From positions 124,001-188,000 of the forward strand of contig JAFKGR010000005.1 in NCBI GenBank assembly GCA_017307735.1: a stretch of DNA of 64,000 nt, in the 5' to 3' direction. The stretch is from Chitinophagaceae bacterium. Its GTDB lineage: Bacteria; Bacteroidota; Bacteroidia; Chitinophagales; Chitinophagaceae. The translations under genes and the position numbers were made by a program. A model generated the notes under the pieces. It had not been told where the DNA came from. It searched no databases and worked only from the letters and a program-made list of their open reading frames with translations. Below are positions 248 to 13,861 of the stretch, piece by piece. Positions within the stretch are counted from its first letter, which is position 1, and each line of letters starts with the position of its first letter.

Positions 248-1255
248 ATGAACCTCATCATCAACTCCTACGGCGCCACCCTTCAAAAAGAAAATAATCT
301 TTTTGTCATTACCACCGCCGAAGGAAAACAAACTTTCCCTCCCGATGTAGTGCGAAGTATTTCCATCAACAAAAGTGCACGCATCACCAGCGATGCCATT
401 TTGCTGGCCATCAAAAATCAGGTAGAAGTTCTTTTTGTTAATGAAATGGGCGAACCTGAAGGCCGTGTGTGGAGTGTGCGTTACGGCTCTATCAGCAACA
501 TCCGGAAAGGGCAGATTAATTTTCTCTATTCGCCCAAATGCACCCAATGGGTCAAAAGCCTCATAGCTTCTAAAATAGACAGCCAGATTGCCCTGTTACT
601 TGGTATTCAACCTGAGAAAGAATCTGATTTAAAAGGCCATAACATTTTTAAGTCGGCCATCAACAGCATGGAAGATTACAAATCGAAAACCAGCAAAATT
701 GAAGGGGAATTTGTGAGTGATATTGCCGCATCATTAAGAGGGTGGGAAGGCGCTGCCAGCAAAAAATATTTTTCATGCCTCGGATTATTTATGCCAGCCT
801 ATTACCAGTTTGCCATACGCGATCGGCAGCCAGCCAAAGACCCCTTTAATGCCCTGCTCAATTATGCCTATGGAATACTTTATGGCAAAGTCGAAGGCGC
901 GCTGATCAAAGCAGGGATAGATCCTTATATCGGAATTTTTCACCGCGACGAATACAACCGGCCGGCATTGGTCTTTGATTTCATAGAAAACTATCGTACA
1001 TGGATGGATTATGTAGTCTTTCAGCTTTGCACCCAGGAAGCCATTCCGCAGGAATCTTTTGAAAAATCGGAAGATACCGGAGCCATCCGCCTTTTACCAC
1101 TTGCCAAAAGAATCCTTATCCAGTCTGTCAACGATTTTCTTGATGAAATAGTCACGATGGATAAACCCCTGAGCCGGCTCTCACACATTGAATCGGCTGC
1201 TTATAAACTCGCCAATATTTTTATAAAAGAAGAAAACAATGCTGCTGATAGGTAA
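248..1255 (+). CDS. cas1: CRISPR-associated endonuclease/integrase Cas1
   Basis: Cas1 is the metal-dependent integrase that, with Cas2, inserts new spacers at the leader end of the array. At 335 aa it has the usual length. An N-terminal beta-rich domain is followed by the all-helical catalytic domain. The three expected metal ligands are visible: Glu167 in the RGWEGAASKKYF motif, His232 in IGIFHRDEYNRPA, and Asp244 in LVFDFIENYR. The neighbouring VirE_N-type gene and the repeat 3' end ATTAAGAC (similar to the 8-nt handle of type III crRNAs) suggest a type III-associated module. It overlaps the next gene by 17 bp, which implies translational coupling. No reverse-transcriptase domain is fused to it. 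Subtype assignment is inference. Confidence 0.95.
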   Translation: MNLIINSYGATLQKENNLFVITTAEGKQTFPPDVVRSISINKSARITSDAILLAIKNQVEVLFVNEMGEPEGRVWSVRYGSISNIRKGQINFLYSPKCTQWVKSLIASKIDSQIALLLGIQPEKESDLKGHNIFKSAINSMEDYKSKTSKIEGEFVSDIAASLRGWEGAASKKYFSCLGLFMPAYYQFAIRDRQPAKDPFNALLNYAYGILYGKVEGALIKAGIDPYIGIFHRDEYNRPALVFDFIENYRTWMDYVVFQLCTQEAIPQESFEKSEDTGAIRLLPLAKRILIQSVNDFLDEIVTMDKPLSRLSHIESAAYKLANIFIKEENNAADR

Positions 1256-2267
1256 ACACATTACAACGCCCGGAGATCCCCTTCAACCCGCTTCGGTTGA
1301 AAAAATTTATCAGGCACTCATAAACACGGAAGGGGATGTTGCCATTTTGCAAAGGAGATTACAGGCTATAAAAATAATTGACATACACCAATATCGTAAA
1401 CTGAAAACAGGATTACCTTATTTAGTATGTGCCTATTTTGAACCCAAAATCAGGAGAAAAGAAAATTTCGTTTATACATCCCGGTTTATTGTGGACATTG
1501 ACCATTTGTCAGAATTCGGATTGAATGCAATTGATTTAAAAGCAAAACTGAAAAACGATTCACGCGTGGAGCTTATGTTTACATCTCCTGGTGGGGATGG
1601 ACTCAAAATACTTTTTTTACTTAAAGATAAAATCAGTGACAGCGGTTTTTACGCCTTGTTTTATAAAACATTTTGCTTGCAGTTTGCCCGTCAATATGAA
1701 TTGGCCGGGGCCGTGGATACCAAAACCAATGATGTGTCCCGGTGTTGTTTTGTAAGCCACGACCCGGATGCATTTTTCAATCCTGATCCGGAAAAGATAG
1801 AAGCAGCCGCTTTTCTTCCAGAAGAAGATTCGGCGGATATCCCTTTTATCAGTAAAGAATTAAATGAACAGGAAAAAAATAACGAAGCGCTGCGCAAAGA
1901 AGCCACAGCCGGAAATCAGGATTCCGCCCCTCTTACAGATGAAGTACTCAACCAAATAAAACAAAAAGTGGGAATGAGGGTGAAGATGCCTGCTAAAAAG
2001 GAATATGAACAACCGGAGGAGCTCGGTCACCTCATGGATGAAGTAGCCGAACAGGTACGCCAGGTAGGTGCTGAGGTCGTTCAGTCGCTGCCAATTTCAT
2101 ATGGACGGAAGATAAAAATCGGGGCTGGTAAATACTGGGCTGAAATCAACTTATTTTATGGACAAAAAGGGGTAAGCATTGTAGGCACATCCAAAACAGG
2201 AAGCAATAAAGAGCTGTGCACAAGTATCGTGGCATTATTAAAAAGTTACTTCAACGTTAACCATTAA
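1239..2267 (+). CDS. BT4734/VirE_N-like (primase-fold) CRISPR-associated protein
   Basis: A 342-aa protein encoded between cas1 and cas2. Residues ~80-185 resemble the BT4734-like VirE N-terminal domain, a relative of archaeo-eukaryotic primases. An acidic DxD motif is visible in RFIVDIDHL, a glycine-rich TSPGGDGLKILF segment sits where primases carry the sxH motif, and a third acidic/Arg-rich stretch reads VDTKTNDVSRCCFVSHDPD. The canonical motif-II histidine appears replaced by Leu/Lys, so catalysis is uncertain. A charged linker (~190-245) leads to a small C-terminal alpha/beta domain that is not recognised. The overlap with cas1 and the 8-bp gap to cas2 argue for a role in spacer acquisition, for example processing or filling in prespacer ends. 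That role is inferred from position and by analogy with CRISPR-associated primase-polymerases. Confidence 0.65.
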   Translation: MLLIGKHITTPGDPLQPASVEKIYQALINTEGDVAILQRRLQAIKIIDIHQYRKLKTGLPYLVCAYFEPKIRRKENFVYTSRFIVDIDHLSEFGLNAIDLKAKLKNDSRVELMFTSPGGDGLKILFLLKDKISDSGFYALFYKTFCLQFARQYELAGAVDTKTNDVSRCCFVSHDPDAFFNPDPEKIEAAAFLPEEDSADIPFISKELNEQEKNNEALRKEATAGNQDSAPLTDEVLNQIKQKVGMRVKMPAKKEYEQPEELGHLMDEVAEQVRQVGAEVVQSLPISYGRKIKIGAGKYWAEINLFYGQKGVSIVGTSKTGSNKELCTSIVALLKSYFNVNH

Positions 2268-2857: not shown

Positions 2858-5800
2858 CCCTGAAAAGGGCATCCAGTAAAACAAGGATTAAGACCTGAAA
2901 TTCATCATCTGTGTAGTGCTCAATGCACCACCCTGAAAAGGGCATCCAGTAAAACAAGGATTAAGACCCGAATTTTGTGTTCCCTTTACCTTCTGTTGTT
3001 TTGAACCCTGAAAAGGGCATCCAGTAAAACAAGGATTAAGACTTTATAAAATCTGTTGTCTTTTCAATCAAAAAATACCCTGAAAAGGGCATCCAGTAAA
3101 ACAAGGATTAAGACACAACATCAAGCATATGCAAGTATGTTTCTTTTGCAGTCCCTGAAAAGGGCATCCAGTAAAACAAGGATTAAGACTCTTCTCTGAT
3201 TTTCTTAGCCCATGCAATCTGTTTTCCCTGAAAAGGGCATCCAGTAAAACAAGGATTAAGACGTCTTCCCCGTCTTCTTTATAATAATGACGTAAAATTG
3301 CCCTGAAAAGGGCATCCAGTAAAACAAGGATTAAGACGTAGTGCTTTAATCGGCTGACGTGCTTCTATTTTCCCCCTGAAAAGGGCATCCAGTAAAACAA
3401 GGATTAAGACTTGTTGAGTTGTCATGATTCTTTATTTTAAAGTTGCCCTGAAAAGGGCATCCAGTAAAACAAGGATTAAGACTTTTCTGTAAATTTTGTT
3501 GAAGTCCTGTCTGTTGTCCCTGAAAAGGGCATCCAGTAAAACAAGGATTAAGACTTTGATTAACAAGTCCGACAAAGAATGACAGCAACCCTGAAAAGGG
3601 CATCCAGTAAAACAAGGATTAAGACAGCTCGGGTCAACCATGTGACCCGAAATTTTTGCCCCTGAAAAGGGCATCCAGTAAAACAAGGATTAAGACAATC
3701 CTGTACCCAATTTTAAAAGGCAGCTGTGCAGTACCCTGAAAAGGGCATCCAGTAAAACAAGGATTAAGACCGGCTCAATAGCTTCGCAAGTACAGCGGCC
3801 ATGTCCCTGAAAAGGGCATCCAGTAAAACAAGGATTAAGACCGCGAAGAGCTAAAGGCAAAGCAGCTTCGGCTCCGGTCCCTGAAAAGGGCATCCAGTAA
3901 AACAAGGATTAAGACTACGGATACCCAGCAGTGTCGCTATTTTCCCTTGAACCCTGAAAAGGGCATCCAGTAAAACAAGGATTAAGACTATTGTAGTTTT
4001 GCCTGTTCCAGACTTGCCGACAATCCCTGAAAAGGGCATCCAGTAAAACAAGGATTAAGACTATCCCAACTCTTCCTTTAAGAGTTTAAGAACCGACCCT
4101 GAAAAGGGCATCCAGTAAAACAAGGATTAAGACTTAAATGTTACTAAGATGGCAGATTTATTAATTAACGTCCCTGAAAAGGGCATCCAGTAAAACAAGG
4201 ATTAAGACTTCTTTGCAAATATCTTCTTCATTCCTTTTGTCGCCCCCTGAAAAGGGCATCCAGTAAAACAAGGATTAAGACTTATTTTCACCTTGAATCC
4301 CCCTTCGCACATAAGGTATCCCTGAAAAGGGCATCCAGTAAAACAAGGATTAAGACACGTCAAATTGTTTACCGACGGGTAACCCGTTTACCGGGCCCTG
4401 AAAAGGGCATCCAGTAAAACAAGGATTAAGACACACTGCCTTTACTAACTTTTTATCGTAACAATCTTCCCCCCTGAAAAGGGCATCCAGTAAAACAAGG
4501 ATTAAGACTTTTGCGTCAAAGCCCTGACCTATCCTCACCTTGAATCCCTGAAAAGGGCATCCAGTAAAACAAGGATTAAGACCCCCCTACCCATTTCTGA
4601 GTAAGGGAAAATACTCTATTCCCTGAAAAGGGCATCCAGTAAAACAAGGATTAAGACGCAATTTCAAATAACCTATCCAATCTTTTATTTTTACCCTGAA
4701 AAGGGCATCCAGTAAAACAAGGATTAAGACTTATGGGAGATTATGTCATGCAATATCTCTATTGCCCTGAAAAGGGCATCCAGTAAAACAAGGATTAAGA
4801 CTTAATAATATTAAGCATATCTGTATAAATACTCAACTCCCTGAAAAGGGCATCCAGTAAAACAAGGATTAAGACTTCAAAATCGTATCTATCCAAAGTA
4901 AATTTTGAAACCCCTGAAAAGGGCATCCAGTAAAACAAGGATTAAGACAACTGTTGCGCGCGCAAGAATAATCTCATTCTCGACCCTGAAAAGGGCATCC
5001 AGTAAAACAAGGATTAAGACATTAAGACCTATTAAAGCTCCAATTTCATTAATAGCATCCCTGAAAAGGGCATCCAGTAAAACAAGGATTAAGACCATTG
5101 AATATTGATTCAGTTAATTCCTTATCGTAACCCCTGAAAAGGGCATCCAGTAAAACAAGGATTAAGACAATTCATCGCGGCCTGTTCATTGTCGCATTTC
5201 ATCCCCTGAAAAGGGCATCCAGTAAAACAAGGATTAAGACATTTTCATAAATTAATCATTATCAACATGCATTAACCCCCTGAAAAGGGCATCCAGTAAA
5301 ACAAGGATTAAGACGGACTTGAACCCTGTGCATGCCTGGATACATGCAACGCCCTGAAAAGGGCATCCAGTAAAACAAGGATTAAGACACCGTACTCGTC
5401 GCCCGGTTATGTTCTTTGGTGAACGCCCTGAAAAGGGCATCCAGTAAAACAAGGATTAAGACACATGTCCAGGTCTTGACCCTACAAGGTCTGGTCGTCA
5501 ACCCTGAAAAGGGCATCCAGTAAAACAAGGATTAAGACTCTTTTCTGATTTTTCTTTTTCAGATTCATCATTAACCCTGAAAAGGGCATCCAGTAAAACA
5601 AGGATTAAGACGCTTTGTAGAGAGTCCAGGACTCTCCGTCCATCCTCCCTGAAAAGGGCATCCAGTAAAACAAGGATTAAGACAATAAAACGTTACCATT
5701 CAAGGTAACGTCAAACGTCTTCCCTGAAAAGGGCATCCAGTAAAACAAGGATTAAGACCCAGGTCTTAACCCTACAAGGTCTGGTCGTCAACGACCCTGA

Positions 5801-7855
5801 AAAGGGCATCCAGTAAAACAAGGATTAAGACGATTCAATCAATTCTTTAATGTTCTTTTTCATAATCCCCTGAAAAGGGCATCCAGTAAAACAAGGATTA
5901 AGACAGAACAGCAATCACGGCCATCACCACAGCGGCGATCCCTGAAAAGGGCATCCAGTAAAACAAGGATTAAGACTGCTTGCACTTGAAGGCTGGACAG
6001 ACGCCAGCGCCCCCTGAAAAGGGCATCCAGTAAAACAAGGATTAAGACCATTTCTGAGTAGGGGAAAATATCACTCTATAACCCTGAAAAGGGCATCCAG
6101 TAAAACAAGGATTAAGACAACTCATTTATTTTCCTTTGGCTTTTGAATTCTAAACCCCTGAAAAGGGCATCCAGTAAAACAAGGATTAAGACGGTTTTGC
6201 GCTAAGTTTTTCAATTAAAAACTTGTAGGCCCCTGAAAAGGGCATCCAGTAAAACAAGGATTAAGACTCTTATTAACATAAGAAACACACGCCTCGCCAG
6301 CCGCCCTGAAAAGGGCATCCAGTAAAACAAGGATTAAGACTTGTGTTAATGAATTGATACTAAAATCATTTAACAAATACCCTGAAAAGGGCATCCAGTA
6401 AAACAAGGATTAAGACTGTGTTAATGAATTGATACTAAAATCATTTAACAAATACCCTGAAAAGGGCATCCAGTAAAACAAGGATTAAGACTGACGACCT
6501 CCTTACCCTTGGGTTGTGTGGCAACCGCCCTGAAAAGGGCATCCAGTAAAACAAGGATTAAGACCCGTTTAAGGTAACGTCAAACTGTTTTCCAACTGCC
6601 CTGAAAAGGGCATCCAGTAAAACAAGGATTAAGACAATATACATTTTTTTATTCCCTGAATGTTATGCCAATACCCTGAAAAGGGCATCCAGTAAAACAA
6701 GGATTAAGACTCATGTGGGCAGTCGTGAATGGTATTAAGGTACCGCCCTGAAAAGGGCATCCAGTAAAACAAGGATTAAGACTTATATTGTCTCTCTTTT
6801 CCCGTTTTTTCATTCACCCTGAAAAGGGCATCCAGTAAAACAAGGATTAAGACCACTCTGTAACGAAGGAAAGATACTTGTATTGTCTCCCCTGAAAAGG
6901 GCATCCAGTAAAACAAGGATTAAGACTGTAAAATTTACTGACAAGCCGAGGCCTGGCCGCGCTCCCTGAAAAGGGCATCCAGTAAAACAAGGATTAAGAC
7001 CCCTATTTTCTATTCTTCTCGTAATCCCGCAGCGCCCCTGAAAAGGGCATCCAGTAAAACAAGGATTAAGACTCACCAAATTTTGTGTTGCCTTTACCCT
7101 CTGTTGTCCCTGAAAAGGGCATCCAGTAAAACAAGGATTAAGACAAGCTATCTCAACACTATGTCGAATTTGAGAAAAAACCCTGAAAAGGGCATCCAGT
7201 ACCCACAACAATTTTGTTGGGGCGCGAAACAAGGATTAAGACCCTTGTTTTGTTTTAAACTGTGAATAAAAATTACGTTGCCCTGAAAAGGGCATCCAGT
7301 AAAACAAGGATTAAGACCCGTTAATTTAAAGTTAGGCCAGTGAGGTTTATAAATGCCCTGAAAAGGGCATCCAGTACCCACAACAATTTTGTTGGGGCGC
7401 GAAACAAGGATTAAGACTCCCAAATTTTGCCGGTTTCAATGTTGATGAACACCCTGAAAAGGGCATCCAGTACCCACAACAATTTTGTTGGGGCGCGAAA
7501 CAAGGATTAAGACGAGAGACGCGTTTGGTAGACCCGCATCTCTTGAGACCCTGAGAAGGGCATCCAGTACCCACAACAATTTTGTTGGGGCGCGAAACAA
7601 GGATTAAGACTATGCAGTTTTTAGTGTTTTAAGAAAATAATGTCCTGCCCTGAGAAGGGCATCCAGTACCCACAACAATTCTGTTGGGGCGCGAAACAAG
7701 GATTAAGACAAATAGCCTCCTTTTTGTGAAGAACTGCTCCGGCTCCCTGAAAAGGGCATCCAGTACCCACAACAATTCTGTTGGGGCGCGAAACAAGGAT
7801 TAAGACTCATCCATCAGTGCAAGTGCACTGTGTACTTACGTTCCCTGAGAGTGGC
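2858..7855 (+). CRISPR. CRISPR array, 66 full repeats plus a degenerate terminal repeat
   Basis: Sixty repeats are 37 nt (first at 2858-2894; starts CCCTGAAAAGGG, ends GGATTAAGAC). Six repeats near the far end are 62 nt. A decayed repeat starts at 7843 and keeps only about its first 13 bases. Spacers are about 33-39 nt, giving 66 spacers. The repeat begins with a 4-bp stem CCCT/AGGG closed by a GAAA (GNRA) loop. The repeat is essentially invariant over ~4.3 kb (2858-7144), which indicates an active or recently expanded array. Polarity (leader left, trailer right) follows from cas2 proximity, the handle-like 3' end and the decayed right end. Several spacers are related to one another and one encodes an antisense P-loop (see findings). 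Effector type is not determined because no interference genes are in the window. Confidence 0.98.
7181..7806 (+). repeat. Block containing six 62-nt chimeric repeats with a hairpin insert
   Basis: Repeats at 7181-7242, 7356-7417, 7452-7513, 7549-7610, 7648-7709 and 7745-7806 carry a 25-nt insertion between ..CCAGTA and AAACAAGG of the normal repeat. The insert contains CAACAATTTTGTTGGGG preceded by CCCA. It can fold into a stem of about 8-9 bp with one bulged A, and it ends in GCGCG. A normal 37-nt repeat (7281-7317) is interspersed. The units at 7549 and 7648 change the first hairpin loop from GAAA to GAGA. The units at 7648 and 7745 share a T-to-C change in the insert loop. Spacers between these units have ordinary length. 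Confidence 0.95.
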
Positions 7856-8895: not shown

Positions 8896-10875
8896 ATGAT
8901 CGAATGGAAATTTACTCCTTACGGGCAGGGAGAAATGAAAACAAATCCAACTAATTCAGAATTTTTCACTACAACAGAAATTGGCAATATTGCTACGAGT
9001 TTAGTTAGAGAGGGAATTCAGAATTCCTTAGATGAGTGGATATATCGAAATTCTAAAAATGAGAAAAAGCCGGTTCATATTGTAATCTCCAATTCCGGTG
9101 ATAAGTATGCGCTTAACCCAAACCAGTATAAGGAATATTTAATTGGATTGGAAGATCACTTAAAAGCCAAGTTAAATGGAATCAGAAACTTACCTGATTT
9201 TCAAAATGAAAAAATGAAATATTTAACTTTTGAGGATTTTAATACAAATGGCTTGGTCGGCAATCCTGATGAATGTGAAGATGTCGAAATTGAAGATAAA
9301 ACTAAAGACCATAACTTTTATCATTTTTGGAGAAATGTTGGAATAACAGGAAAGCCAGAAGATAAACTAGGTCGCTGGGGTGTGGGCAAAACAGTATTTC
9401 CTGTTTCTTCCAAGATTAATTCGTTTTTTGGTCTTACAACTCAGAAAGGCAATGCCCAGCCCTATTTGTTGGGACAATCAGTTTTGAAATCGCACAACTT
9501 GGAATCAGTTTATCAACCTTACGGTTACAGGCCATATGGTTACTTTGCAGAATATAAGGACTCTCTTTTCCCATACGCCATTGCTGATACAGATACAATT
9601 CAGAAATTTATGCGGTCTTTTCGTCTAAAAAGAAATATCACCGATTCAGGTCTGTCGATTATTTTACCTTTTATTCGCGAGGAAATCAATAATATTTCAA
9701 TTTTTAAAGCTGTCGTACTGCAATACTATTTTCCAATAATTAAAAATGAGCTTACCGTCGATGTGGTTTATGAAGACAATATAATCTCTATTAGATCAGA
9801 AACCATTAAAGAAGTAGTAGATGAATATTGGGACGATAGTAATAATGATACACCAGATAAAATTTCTGTAATCAAACTTTTTGACTTTGTCAGTTGGGCA
9901 TTAGGCCTAGGTTTAGCAGAATTCTATTCTTTAAAGGAACAGCCTGTAAGAAATCAACCAAAATGGAGTGATAAACTTTGGGAAAATATAGACCAGGATG
10001 AAATAATAGAACATTTTGAAAAAGAAGGAAAAATTGCTTTTCGGGTGCCGGTAAAGTTTGGTAAATCTGATGAACCGAATGAAGCCAAAATCTCTTGGTT
10101 TAAAGTTGTTTTTGAAAAAGATGAAAGTCTAAAAACTGCTGAAACTCATTATATACGTGAGAATATTACCATTGTGGACATTAAATCGATTAGGAACCCA
10201 GCGATTAGAGCAATGGTGCTTATTGAAGACAAGGATCTATCAAATTTATTAGGGGATTCAGAAAATCCAGCACACACCCAATGGCAAAAGGGTTCCCAGA
10301 ATTTCCTTGACAAGTACATTGACGGTGATAAATGTATAACGTTTGTGATAAATAGCATTATTAGTATTTATCAAAAGCTCCAGAAACCCGCTAAAGGTTT
10401 AGAGAAAGATATTTTAAAAAATATTTTCTTTATTAGAACAAATGAAGAAGATGGTAATTCAGATATTTTTGACGATGACTCTTACAAAGACAAAAAAGAT
10501 ATTGGCAAAAAAGATGTGCCCGAAATTCCAGCGTCCCGTAGAGAAATGGTTCGTGTTAATAAGATTCCCGGAGGGCTGAAAGTATTTCCTTATGGAATCT
10601 CAAAGGATAACTTGCCTCAGATAGAACTAGAAATCGCGTATGATACAACTCGAGGCAATCCATTAAAAAAATATCAAAAATTTGATTTCCAGCTCAATAA
10701 AGTTCCGATTAAGACGATTCCGAAAAATTGCCACTTTGGGTTTCCCGAGGCTAACATTATTAGATTAAACCCGTATAAAGAGGATTTTGAATTAACAATA
10801 ACAGGATTTGATGAAAACAGAGATTTATATTTTAATTTAAAAACACAATATCCAGAACATGATTCGGAGATATAA
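8896..10875 (+). CDS. GHKL-type ATPase (MutL/MORC-like), putative defence effector
   Basis: A 659-aa protein whose first ~180 residues carry a GHKL/HATPase signature. The N-box reads SLVREGIQNSLDE (Glu39, Asn43, Asp46). A G1-like motif is FEDFNTNGL (Asp114, Gly119), and a glycine-rich lid is LGRWGVGKTVF (159-168). The remaining ~450 residues are not recognised; they include a conserved-looking WFKVVFEKDE segment and an acidic stretch before residue 550. GHKL ATPases of the MutL/MORC group are known from comparative genomics to be linked to cytosine methyltransferases in predicted restriction systems. Here the gene faces a C5 methyltransferase, a C-like regulator and Vsr, which fits that theme. 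It overlaps the following gene by 17 bp. The start at 8896 is supported by MIEWKFTPYG and the 10-bp gap to the previous gene. Its biochemical role (DNA clamp or nuclease activator) is inference. Confidence 0.75.
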   Translation: MIEWKFTPYGQGEMKTNPTNSEFFTTTEIGNIATSLVREGIQNSLDEWIYRNSKNEKKPVHIVISNSGDKYALNPNQYKEYLIGLEDHLKAKLNGIRNLPDFQNEKMKYLTFEDFNTNGLVGNPDECEDVEIEDKTKDHNFYHFWRNVGITGKPEDKLGRWGVGKTVFPVSSKINSFFGLTTQKGNAQPYLLGQSVLKSHNLESVYQPYGYRPYGYFAEYKDSLFPYAIADTDTIQKFMRSFRLKRNITDSGLSIILPFIREEINNISIFKAVVLQYYFPIIKNELTVDVVYEDNIISIRSETIKEVVDEYWDDSNNDTPDKISVIKLFDFVSWALGLGLAEFYSLKEQPVRNQPKWSDKLWENIDQDEIIEHFEKEGKIAFRVPVKFGKSDEPNEAKISWFKVVFEKDESLKTAETHYIRENITIVDIKSIRNPAIRAMVLIEDKDLSNLLGDSENPAHTQWQKGSQNFLDKYIDGDKCITFVINSIISIYQKLQKPAKGLEKDILKNIFFIRTNEEDGNSDIFDDDSYKDKKDIGKKDVPEIPASRREMVRVNKIPGGLKVFPYGISKDNLPQIELEIAYDTTRGNPLKKYQKFDFQLNKVPIKTIPKNCHFGFPEANIIRLNPYKEDFELTITGFDENRDLYFNLKTQYPEHDSEI

Positions 10876-11611
10876 TTATACTGGTCGCAAGAAACTATTT
10901 ACTGAAAAGATAAAAATTAATGAGGTAGCAAAAAATGGGAGAAAACAGTTTCAGGTATCTTTTGATTTAAAAGATTCTGGTTTCCCGGATGACGCTTGTA
11001 TTTACATTGAACCTTATTTTAAATCTTCTTTTTTAAGGTTTCATTTTGGGACCATTGCAAGGATTCTGCTTCCAGATACTACTGATGTAAGTGATTTGCC
11101 TACCACAGATCAATTACTGTATAGAGTTAAAATAGTAGATGAAAAGTTTAAACATGGTTTAATCCTAGCGACTGCCGACATTAAAGGTACTTTAACTGAC
11201 AACCCGGATGCAGGAAAGCAATCTATCCTTCCTGTTGATTTTGTAGACTTGGGAAACAGGGTCTGGGCCTTAGATTTTAGAATAAATGGACCAGTTCTAG
11301 CCGTTAACAGTCTTTTGAATAAAATAAATATTAGAGAGAAAATAAAGCAAGAAGAATTTTTCAGTCTGGTTTATCCTGAAGTAATAAAGAGAATCGCTTT
11401 GAAACTGGCCAAAACAGCTGGTTTTTTTCAAGATGAACTATCCGGTTGGCAGTCTGAATGGCTGACATTTTTCAGAGAGGTATTAATGAAAGCAGATAAG
11501 CCACAAAATGATGATGACTTAATTGAAGAATGGTGCAATGATATGTCAGATGCTTTTGCAAGGAAATATCAGGTTTTTCAACTTTATACTGAATTAAATA
11601 AAATAAAATGA
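10859..11611 (+). CDS. Unrecognised 250-aa protein of the ATPase operon
   Basis: The gene overlaps the ATPase by 17 bp and the next gene by 4 bp, so translational coupling is very likely and the three products probably act together. The first ~150 residues look beta-rich (FQVSFDLKDSGF, CIYIEPYFKSSFLRFHFGT, NRVWALDFRINGPVLAVN). The last ~90 are helical (REKIKQEEFFSLVYPEVIKR, LSGWQSEWLTFFREVL, ending VFQLYTELNKIK). No nuclease, helicase or membrane motif is visible. No family is recognised. A structural or adaptor role within a complex with the ATPase is the simplest guess from context. Confidence 0.7.
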   Translation: MIRRYNYTGRKKLFTEKIKINEVAKNGRKQFQVSFDLKDSGFPDDACIYIEPYFKSSFLRFHFGTIARILLPDTTDVSDLPTTDQLLYRVKIVDEKFKHGLILATADIKGTLTDNPDAGKQSILPVDFVDLGNRVWALDFRINGPVLAVNSLLNKINIREKIKQEEFFSLVYPEVIKRIALKLAKTAGFFQDELSGWQSEWLTFFREVLMKADKPQNDDDLIEEWCNDMSDAFARKYQVFQLYTELNKIK

Positions 11612-12324
11612 TAATTAGAATATTAAACGAAAAGGGCATTGATGAATTTCGCAAACAATTACAAGAGATAAGAATAGGAGCAAGACAGGAATTGAATACT
11701 GATTTTTTGATAAATAAAGATTTTACTACTTGCTTTGAAAACGACGTAGAAATTGAAGAAATGCCATTTAAAAACAAGCAGGAGATTATTGAATACCTCT
11801 GTGAAAAGATTGATTTAAAAAACCACAAGCATTTATATTATCATCGTGGGTTGTGGACTTGGCTTGCTGCTTTTTATTTCAAAAGTTTAACTTCTACAAA
11901 AGATGGGAAACGAAAGGTTAATGAGGATGCAAAGTATATACTAATGGAACCTAAGAACTGGAGAAGATACTACAGACATTTGCTCGCTTCTTTTGCCCGG
12001 GTATATTGTGAACTTGATGTTTTAGCTATTCCTTACCTTTCCTACCCAATTTCAATTTGGAGTGATCTTCATGAACAGTTGTTTGCATATCAACGAATCG
12101 CTACTAATCGACCACTAATCGAGGCGGCGAATAAACTATACTGGGACAATAAGAATTTAAAGATTAAAAAAGGCGCTGGATCAAGCGGATCAGGTACCCC
12201 TCGCAGGTTCTCAGCTATTGTAGGGCAATTCGAATTAACCTTTGATTTGAATGCAATGAACTATAATGATATTTTATCACTTTTCCCTCAACAAGAATTT
12301 AAGAAATGGGAATCTGCTGCATAA
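11608..12324 (+). CDS. 238-aa protein of the ATPase operon, possibly DUF6339-like
   Basis: The last gene of the putative effector operon; its ATG overlaps the preceding stop. A central helical region includes WTWLAAFYFKSL and NWRRYYRHLLASFARVYCEL. The C-terminal third has LYWDNKNLKIKKGAG, a Gly/Ser-rich turn, then GTPRRFSAIVGQFELTFDLNAMNYNDILSLFP. This C-terminal pattern (LYWD, then a QFDLTYDL-type strand and ILxLxP) resembles what I recall of the DUF6339 family, but the match is from memory. No catalytic motif is evident. Its 3' end overlaps the convergent methyltransferase gene by 26 bp. Confidence 0.65.
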   Translation: MIIRILNEKGIDEFRKQLQEIRIGARQELNTDFLINKDFTTCFENDVEIEEMPFKNKQEIIEYLCEKIDLKNHKHLYYHRGLWTWLAAFYFKSLTSTKDGKRKVNEDAKYILMEPKNWRRYYRHLLASFARVYCELDVLAIPYLSYPISIWSDLHEQLFAYQRIATNRPLIEAANKLYWDNKNLKIKKGAGSSGSGTPRRFSAIVGQFELTFDLNAMNYNDILSLFPQQEFKKWESAA

Positions 12325-13861
12325 GAGCTTTTACTATTATCGCAATTTGATTTGCCAATAAGGGAGGCACAGCATTTCCTACCTGATGAAATTGTGAAGT
12401 TCTAGGTCCACAAAAAAAATAATTATCAGGAAAGGTTTGAATCCTCGCAGCCTCTCTCACTGTTAGACTTCTGCATTGTGTTGAATCCGGATGAATGAAA
12501 TAATGACCATCTTTTGAAATATGACTCGTAACGGTTTTAGAAGGCTGTCCGTACAATTGGACTCTAAACCGATCTGCAAATTTCCCCTCTTTTGCATTAA
12601 GGTGGTTTGGCAAAAGAAAATCAGGAAAATCTGATAATTTGGGGGACCGCCCTTTTACTTTTGCAAAACAGGAAACAAAAAGATACCGGTGCAAATCTTC
12701 TTTGATATGACTCCGGCTTTCATGATTACAAACGCCATCGAGATTATTATCCAGATACCAGGATTTATTGTAATTGATATTTGCCGCATATTCAATATAA
12801 TCATTCCCTTTTCCTTTTTGAGGCATCGATAAATTATCAATTATCTTTTTCATCCTATTCCAGACTTCGGCATCAATCTGATTACCGGTATTGATGGTTA
12901 GTAACTCTTCTATTGCCCTTTTCCAATTCTGCTTGTTATCTGTTTCTTTTGATAAACCACTTCTGATAGTTGGCAGACCACTCAAGACATCGTCAACAGG
13001 AATCAATGCTTTAGCTTTTGTCAATAGGGAAGGAACTATTTGTATATCAGTGCGGATCCCTAATAATATTACCCTATGTCTCGTTTGTGGTATTCCAAAC
13101 TCTTCTGACCGTATAATAAAATCTGTTGGATCAAACAGTTCTTCCCCAAACATATTTTTATCCGGTCGTTTAACTAAGGAATATATTTTATACCTGATTT
13201 TGCTTTTTTCTATGTTCGCTTTTCCTTCCAGTTTTTTGTAAGATTCTACAGGATTTTTCAGATCACTTATAATTTCTTTGAATACACCTACATTATCCAC
13301 TTTTGACGAAAGAATTCCTTTTACATTTTCCATTATAAACACCGGAGGTTGGTAAACAGCAAGAATTCTATAATATTCTCTGTATAAATAAACCCGCGGA
13401 TCTTTTTTATTTAATCCTTCCGTTTCCCGCCTTCTTGCACGTCCCACTATCGAATATGCCTGGCAAGGTGGACCTCCAATTAAAAGGAAATCTTTTTTAC
13501 CTTTCAGGCTTTCCTGAATTCTTTCATCTATAAAAGAATGATTTTCAGCCTTACCCATTTCGAATTTCCACGCTTCATTCTTTGCTTTTTCAGCCTGCAC
13601 AGGATATTTCTGAAAGAGTGCTTCAACATCTTTTTCTTCTGACTTCAGGAAACCGTAATATTCAGGGGGGAACTTTTTATAAGGAAATTGTCGGAGAAAA
13701 CTTCTCAATGTAAGAGTCTTATGTGCATATTCATCTTTCTCAATTGACAGTGCGATTTTAAAAAAACGATTATTATCATCATCGACAATGGAAGTAAAAC
13801 CTTCACCGAGACCGCCTGGTCCGGCAAATAAATCTATAATAGGAATTTGTTTGTCTTTCAT
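12299..13861 (-). CDS. dcm: DNA (cytosine-5) methyltransferase, Dcm-type
   Basis: A 520-aa C5-cytosine methyltransferase with all landmark motifs in order: motif I IIDLFAGPGGLGEGF (SAM binding), motif IV LIGGPPCQAYSIVG with the catalytic Cys, motif VI IMENVKG, motif VIII EEFGIPQTRHRVILLG, motif IX CRSLTVREAARIQTFPD, and motif X QVGNAVPPLLANQIA. The variable region before motif IX is the target-recognition domain; the recognised sequence cannot be read from it. The protein is long for the family because of extra sequence between motifs I and IV. It lies 17 bp downstream of the HTH regulator in the same operon. It probably protects host DNA against the partner activity encoded on the opposite strand. 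Confidence 0.95.
   Translation of the reverse strand: MKDKQIPIIDLFAGPGGLGEGFTSIVDDDNNRFFKIALSIEKDEYAHKTLTLRSFLRQFPYKKFPPEYYGFLKSEEKDVEALFQKYPVQAEKAKNEAWKFEMGKAENHSFIDERIQESLKGKKDFLLIGGPPCQAYSIVGRARRRETEGLNKKDPRVYLYREYYRILAVYQPPVFIMENVKGILSSKVDNVGVFKEIISDLKNPVESYKKLEGKANIEKSKIRYKIYSLVKRPDKNMFGEELFDPTDFIIRSEEFGIPQTRHRVILLGIRTDIQIVPSLLTKAKALIPVDDVLSGLPTIRSGLSKETDNKQNWKRAIEELLTINTGNQIDAEVWNRMKKIIDNLSMPQKGKGNDYIEYAANINYNKSWYLDNNLDGVCNHESRSHIKEDLHRYLFVSCFAKVKGRSPKLSDFPDFLLPNHLNAKEGKFADRFRVQLYGQPSKTVTSHISKDGHYFIHPDSTQCRSLTVREAARIQTFPDNYFFCGPRTSQFHQVGNAVPPLLANQIAIIVKALMQQIPIS

Follow-up and report, generated by a model that had tools for sequence, protein, structure and literature searches.

Gene content and organization of the locus

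The window analysed here is a 64,000-nt stretch of contig JAFKGR010000005.1 from a member of the Chitinophagaceae (positions 124,001–188,000), and its first eighth is taken up by the adaptation genes and array of a CRISPR-Cas system, laid out as follows.

1–157, + strand: 3′ end of the gene for a 426-aa TPR and S1/cold-shock (OB) protein (PADLOC PDLC01170, E 1e-54; its homologues match S1CSD-TOTE-1/2 and PDC-M16B)
248–1255, + strand: cas1, 335 aa, with the catalytic E (GWEG), H and D conserved (PF01867, E 1.3e-64)
1239–2267, + strand: CRISPR-associated primase-polymerase type B (CAPP_B), 342 aa, ATG start (NF040562, PF08800 and a model of the AEP core)
2276–2767, + strand: cas2, 163 aa, with an N-terminal extension of ~65 aa (2276–2470; PF09827 at residues 66–136)
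2768–2857, + strand: probable leader between cas2 and the first repeat (from its position, the repeat orientation and the same layout in the related locus L009)
2858–7806, + strand: CRISPR array of 66 repeats; six of them, 62 nt long, carry a 25-nt insert, and the other 60 measure 37 nt

The overlap with cas1 and adjacency to cas2 that had drawn attention to the third of these genes in the initial annotation amount to 17 nt shared with the 3′ end of cas1 and a gap of 8 nt to cas2. The window begins inside the operon, and 16 kb more of the same contig were added to it (the extended locus is L008). So extended, the operon reads cas6, cas10, csm2, csm3, csm4, csm5, genes for a Card1-type CARF nuclease, a Csx1-type CARF-HEPN protein, a 116-aa protein, an AAA ATPase, a RecD/PIF1-like helicase and the TPR-cold-shock protein (L008:14877–16157, starting 1124 nt upstream of the window), and then cas1, CAPP_B, cas2 and the CRISPR array. 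Judged by this gene content, the CAPP_B gene lies at the end of a type III-A CRISPR-Cas operon, in the setting of cas1 and cas2, a type III system and a Bacteroidota genome that marks CAPP_B operons; the nearest named relative, L009, comes from a Bacteroidetes MAG.

Two further features of the operon may be recorded. The AAA ATPase gene (L008:12078–13241), placed between the CARF genes and the helicase, encodes a protein 90% identical to its counterpart in L009 and was not detected in any of the remaining CAPP_B loci; it is perhaps a local insertion. The N-terminal extension of Cas2 has no Pfam match, is kept in most CAPP_B operons according to the alignment, and is a candidate contact for CAPP or Cas1.

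A full-length member of the CAPP_B family

The protein encoded at 1239–2267 matches the NCBIfam model NF040562, "CRISPR-associated primase-polymerase type B" (PrimPol_Db), with 418.2 bits (E 2.4e-125) against a cut-off of 200, and the match is full length, running from residue 2 to residue 337 on a model of 335 positions. The Pfam family BT4734-like_N (PF08800) is found within it at residues 55–180 (63 bits, E 3.9e-17). On these profile matches the protein is a full-length member of a characterised family, and the core finding is in that respect already known. Zabrady et al. (2021; PMC8211822) defined the CAPP_A and CAPP_B families and purified DbCAPP, a CAPP_B protein of a Dysgonamonadaceae bacterium encoded between cas1 and cas2, which proved to be a DNA-dependent DNA polymerase and primase whose polymerase activity was abolished by the D86A/D88A substitutions. 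DbCAPP was also shown to interact with Cas1 and Cas2, as was Cas1 with RecD, and CAPPs to have strand-displacement activity (PMC8211822). The initial annotation had thus correctly seen an AEP primase of the BT4734 type encoded with cas1 and cas2, but its statement that this version was not functionally characterised is wrong, since DbCAPP, a CAPP_B in the equivalent position, was assayed in 2021 (PMC8211822).

The correspondence between DbCAPP and the window protein is drawn through the family model and the identical numbering of D86 and D88, and the two further share their position between cas1 and cas2, a RecD-like helicase in the operon, a type III system and a Bacteroidota host. They differ in that the present operon additionally has the TPR-S1/CSD protein; the DbCAPP C-terminus was described as a 'diverse smaller C-terminus' (PMC8211822), whereas here it is assigned to a TBP-lobe family (see below). 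By analogy with DbCAPP, the window protein would have polymerase and primase activity and would bind Cas1. The role in spacer acquisition proposed for it earlier is plausible, and the gene provides one more example of a known CRISPR polymerase. The Marinitoga CAPP (PDB 7nqd/7p9j), of the CAPP_A family, is likewise an AEP primase-polymerase adjoining cas1 and cas2, but CAPP_A proteins are distant in sequence (VIA Z about 6) and carry TPR, RT or helicase fusions, and no N-terminal fusion of any of these kinds was detected by Pfam in the window protein.

The CAPP_B gene is rare, since NF040562 exceeded its cut-off in only 3 of 395, 6 of 395, 3 of 291 and 6 of 198 Bacteroidota genomes in overlapping draws. 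Relatives nevertheless keep the gene beside cas1, on which the initial annotation had made its proposal depend: the order cas1-CAPP-cas2 is found in all 14 relatives taken with their flanks from the genome collection. Two plasmid members, both annotated as CAPP type B, depart from it, with the order CAPP-cas2-cas1 in Runella and, in Persicobacter, a divergent cas2 and a cas1 about 3 kb off, so the family is not bound to one gene order. A search for close relatives of CAPP_B in viral contigs found none; alignment search of these contigs returned distant BT4734-type proteins only, which were added to deepen the alignment for fold prediction.

Catalytic motifs and the predicted AEP fold

Within the gene, the following elements can be placed.

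1494–1502, + strand: motif I, D86-x-D88, invariant in 14 homologues and bearing the same numbers as D86/D88 of DbCAPP
1584–1607, + strand: motif II, S116-P-G-G-D-G-L-K123, with an invariant Lys in place of the usual His
1716–1742, + strand: motif III, D160-xxTxD-xxR168, with D160, T163, D165 and R168 invariant
2007–2252, + strand: predicted TBP-like lobe, residues about 257–338, helix-four strands-helix (Foldseek/VIA, hhalign, Pfam TBP-TOTE and reciprocal HMM)

The three motifs on which a primase fold had originally been suspected, a DxD motif, a GGDG-type loop and a third acidic/basic motif (D160...D165..R168), are all borne out by the alignment of 14 homologues, across which D86, D88, S116, P117, G119, G121, K123, D160, T163, D165 and R168 are invariant. 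The suspected replacement of the motif II His, a residue usual but not universal in AEPs, is also real, and the residue found instead is Lys123, unchanged in 22 sequences that include distant viral BT4734 proteins. Because Lys123 is invariant throughout the BT4734 clade sampled, the alignment identifies the substitution as a family-wide clade trait, not a loss. Nor can it be read as a sign of lost activity, since the family includes an active enzyme, a conclusion that would extend to the window protein.

A PDB sequence search with the whole protein gave no match at E up to 1, and the fold was approached through a model built from 22 sequences (pLDDT 77.6 on average, and over 90 in most of the AEP core). 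The top row of the VIA-align comparison was 6zp9, the AEP domain of the cyanophage S-2L PrimPol (Z 9.8, 4.5 Å, 145 residues), followed by Prim-PolC (Z 7.6) and, lower, the Marinitoga CAPP 7p9j (Z 6.0), while Foldseek with the whole model placed LigD polymerase domains on top (E about 0.003). The S-2L PrimPol, Prim-PolC and LigD-Pol rows together point to a fold of the AEP/Prim-Pol superfamily. A fold unrelated to primases, named in the initial annotation as the outcome that would overturn it, is therefore not what the model predicts.

A predicted TBP-like lobe at the C-terminus

The initial annotation had left the C-terminal domain as unknown, and both structure and sequence profiles now assign it, by prediction, to the TBP-like lobes, domains that resemble one half of the TATA-binding protein (TBP). 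Folded alone, the tail gave a model with pLDDT 76.7 for which E. coli RnlA took each of the top six Foldseek rows (probability 1.00, E between 0.016 and 0.046), and in VIA it aligned with residues 13–95 of RnlA 4i8o at Z 8.5 and 2.7 Å over 78 of 92 residues. Among Pfam families, the two best for the 15 CAPP_B tails were TBP-TOTE (6 of 15, best E 3.9e-4) and RnlA_toxin_N (3 of 15, best E 3.1e-3), all matches lying below the curated cut-offs. Profile comparison by hhalign of the CAPP_B tails with 15 TBP-TOTE lobes from Bacteroidota reached 96.4% (E 1.4e-9, 75 columns), against 0.8% for a control with the Cas2 alignment, and aligned the invariant Tyr288 of CAPP_B with a nearly invariant Tyr of the TBP-TOTE lobes. 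The relationship is reciprocal: against six-frame ORFs of the loci, the TBP-TOTE lobe profile retrieved TOTE helicases first and, after them, CAPP_B proteins with few exceptions; the CAPP_B tail profile retrieved 15 of 15 CAPP_B proteins and then TOTE helicases only. Besides Tyr288, with Gly289, the invariant residues of the lobe are Asn304, Gly308 and Gly311.

The assignment is made from the CAPP_B family profile and the fold, and it concerns the family, because the window tail as a single sequence is a weak match to the TBP-lobe HMM (E 0.17); the window protein by itself matched no Pfam TBP model. A PDB search with the tail profile gave non-significant matches only, DUF3378 (the RNase H3 N-domain) was not found in 40 class relatives, and RnlA_toxin had one match there, too few for a profile comparison. 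The tail could instead have another α-β4-α fold, KA1-like for example, that is not homologous to TBP lobes, as KA1 domains (the nearest at 7.9) and the VCR domains of METTL16 reach Z values of 7 to 8 in VIA, within about 1 of RnlA; we consider this improbable, given that RnlA is clearly first in Foldseek and that sequence profiles independently select TBP-TOTE and RnlA_toxin_N.

As in the N-domains of RnlA and RNase H3, the CAPP_B lobe would be a monopartite TBP-like lobe joined to a nucleic-acid enzyme, the partner there being a ribonuclease and here a primase. The RnlA and RNase H3 lobes have been described as TBP-like modules that bind double-stranded nucleic acid, and that of RNase H3 binds across the minor groove of an RNA/DNA hybrid (PMC4132731). 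By analogy with RNase H3 and TBP, the CAPP_B lobe probably binds double-stranded nucleic acid as well, which offers a role in duplex binding, open to testing, for a region of these enzymes that had lacked an explanation. Within the literature searched, the assignment of the tail to TBP-like lobes appears new.

One relative separates the lobe from catalysis. L063:8435–9502, from an 82% complete genome (G532), encodes a CAPP_B between cas1 and cas2 in which motif I reads VQFTN, motif II reads LPSATEVIALL and motif III is lost; the ORF nevertheless remains open (355 aa), the TBP-like lobe is conserved, and the E, H and D of Cas1 are intact. With its catalytic motifs gone, synthesis cannot be the function of CAPP_B in this lineage, and the sequence suggests that the lobe does something without it. 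L063 is a single case, and may be regarded as a natural separation-of-function variant.

Parts shared with TOTE-type defence systems

TOTE denotes TPR, OB, TBP and Effector (PMC12458937). In Bacteroidota, the TBP-TOTE lobes found in this analysis occur singly or in pairs at the C-termini of RecD-like helicases, which match PADLOC PDC-M16A along their length and adjoin a TPR gene. The helicase of the window operon (469 aa) is an SF1 RecD-like enzyme of this kind (PDC-M16A, E 1.4e-115), but matches positions 13–485 of 721 only, ends at UvrD_C_2, and has no TBP lobe by Pfam or the lobe HMM, whereas TOTE helicases have one or two C-terminal lobes. S1CSD-TOTE-1/-2 domains are present in the TPR proteins beside cas1 and cas2 in three other loci (L059, L064 and L065), of which the L059 and L064 proteins also match PDC-M16B (E down to 1e-101 among relatives); the window TPR protein belongs by profile (PDLC01170) to the same TPR-S1/CSD family, its S1/CSD part alone not being recognised by Pfam. 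The helicase is found in 9 of 15 CAPP_B loci, the TPR-S1/CSD protein in 5 and either in 11; several of the contigs are truncated. Two plasmid loci that lay outside the set used for building profiles have the TPR-S1/CSD gene, and one has the helicase too.

With these two genes often present in its operons, the CAPP_B adaptation module contains parts of a TOTE system, the lobe being carried by the primase. The likeness extends to the TPR-S1/CSD protein, the helicase and a TOTE-type TBP lobe; the differences are that the single lobe of CAPP_B is fused to the primase and that cas1 and cas2 are present. It is enticing to speculate that CAPP_B modules descended from, or swapped parts with, TOTE/PDC-M16 systems, the TPR-S1/CSD and helicase genes having moved beside cas1-cas2 and the lobe having come to sit on a BT4734-type primase and not on the helicase, to build a complex that makes and delivers spacer DNA and in which the lobe has a job separate from catalysis. 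We regard this scenario as evenly poised between right and wrong; descent from TOTE, like any direction of exchange, is a matter of inference. The shared parts tie CRISPR adaptation to TOTE-type innate defence. Literature searches for work joining Prim-Pol with TBP and CRISPR, or primases with TOTE, returned no paper that makes this connection, and the TOTE-type operon partners of CAPP_B appear to go beyond the papers searched; since these did not include the original TOTE paper, priority for the link is not established.

A proposed role in spacer acquisition

The reading that we favour, and consider probable, starts from the family membership, motifs, operon and TOTE-type partners established above and from the lobe as established by prediction and profile. 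It holds that CAPP_B is the Cas1-associated primase-polymerase of the type III-A system and works with Cas1-Cas2, the SF1 RecD-like helicase and the TPR-S1/CSD (OB) protein to make or fill in spacer DNA, while its lobe probably holds on to the duplex. In this scheme the helicase and OB protein would expose or hold single-stranded invader DNA; the AEP domain, with D86xD88, SPGGDGLK123 and D160...R168, would start and extend DNA strands, so that CAPP might prime on this single-stranded DNA and copy it into a duplex prespacer, and/or fill gaps by strand displacement after integration by Cas1-Cas2. The TBP-like lobe would grip the duplex product or the primer-template and help to pass the duplex to Cas1. 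The order of these steps, their role in vivo and duplex binding by the lobe are what we infer. Against this reading stand the CAPP_B loci from which helicase and TPR partners are missing, and the loss of catalytic motifs in L063.

CAPP_B might instead act only after integration, as a gap-filling, strand-displacing polymerase that completes repeat duplication, its priming being incidental. Such a role, which is among the proposals of PMC8211822, would make use of the strand displacement reported for CAPPs and suits an array in which even 62-nt repeats have been copied, but we hold it to be somewhat unlikely, as the homologue has kept its primase activity and the operon encodes a RecD-like helicase and an OB protein, all of which suggests that single-stranded DNA is handled before integration. 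That CAPP_B is mainly a structural adaptor, its lobe binding the duplex prespacer or leader and recruiting Cas1 while catalysis is secondary, is what one might conclude from L063, which keeps the lobe, the position between cas1 and cas2 and the Cas1 active site with all AEP motifs gone; yet this is one incomplete genome, the remaining 14 members have kept their motifs, and the homologue that was purified polymerises DNA and loses this activity on D86A/D88A mutation, all of which makes the adaptor role quite unlikely. Scarcely credible, and set aside here, is the notion that a BT4734/VirE mobile element brought the gene in as a passenger without a CRISPR role: many proteins of phages and mobile elements contain BT4734-like domains and share an AEP domain with an SPxGxGLK motif II, but those proteins are mostly 600–1000 aa long, with longer C-terminal regions and without cas1 or cas2, whereas CAPP_B has a family-specific tail, a conserved position with cas1 and cas2 and a full-length match to the CRISPR-specific model NF040562.

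The CRISPR array and neighbouring genes

The six 62-nt repeats lie at the cas-distal end of the array (7181–7806), with one normal repeat (7281) among them, and each has its own spacer of normal length. Their 25-nt insert, CCCACAACAATTTTGTTGGGGCGCG, falls within the loop of the hairpin predicted for the repeat, and the rest of the genome has no further copy of it; the 62-nt repeat had no plasmid match, and the repeats of relatives are of 37 nt. The longer repeat seems to have been copied by spacer acquisition or by conversion between repeats. Elsewhere in the array, spacers at 6341–6491, 4582–4690, 5462–5791 and 6048–6118 overlap or come close to duplicating each other, with their ends offset, a pattern that looks like repeated sampling of the same targets; a doubled spacer motif sought in viral contigs was not found there.

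Beyond the array lies a three-gene cluster (8896–12324) whose second and third proteins had no matches and whose first matches the PADLOC candidate PDC-M33A (E 1.5e-19), and next to it, on the − strand at 12299–13861, is a gene for a DrmMII-like cytosine DNA methyltransferase (E 2e-98).
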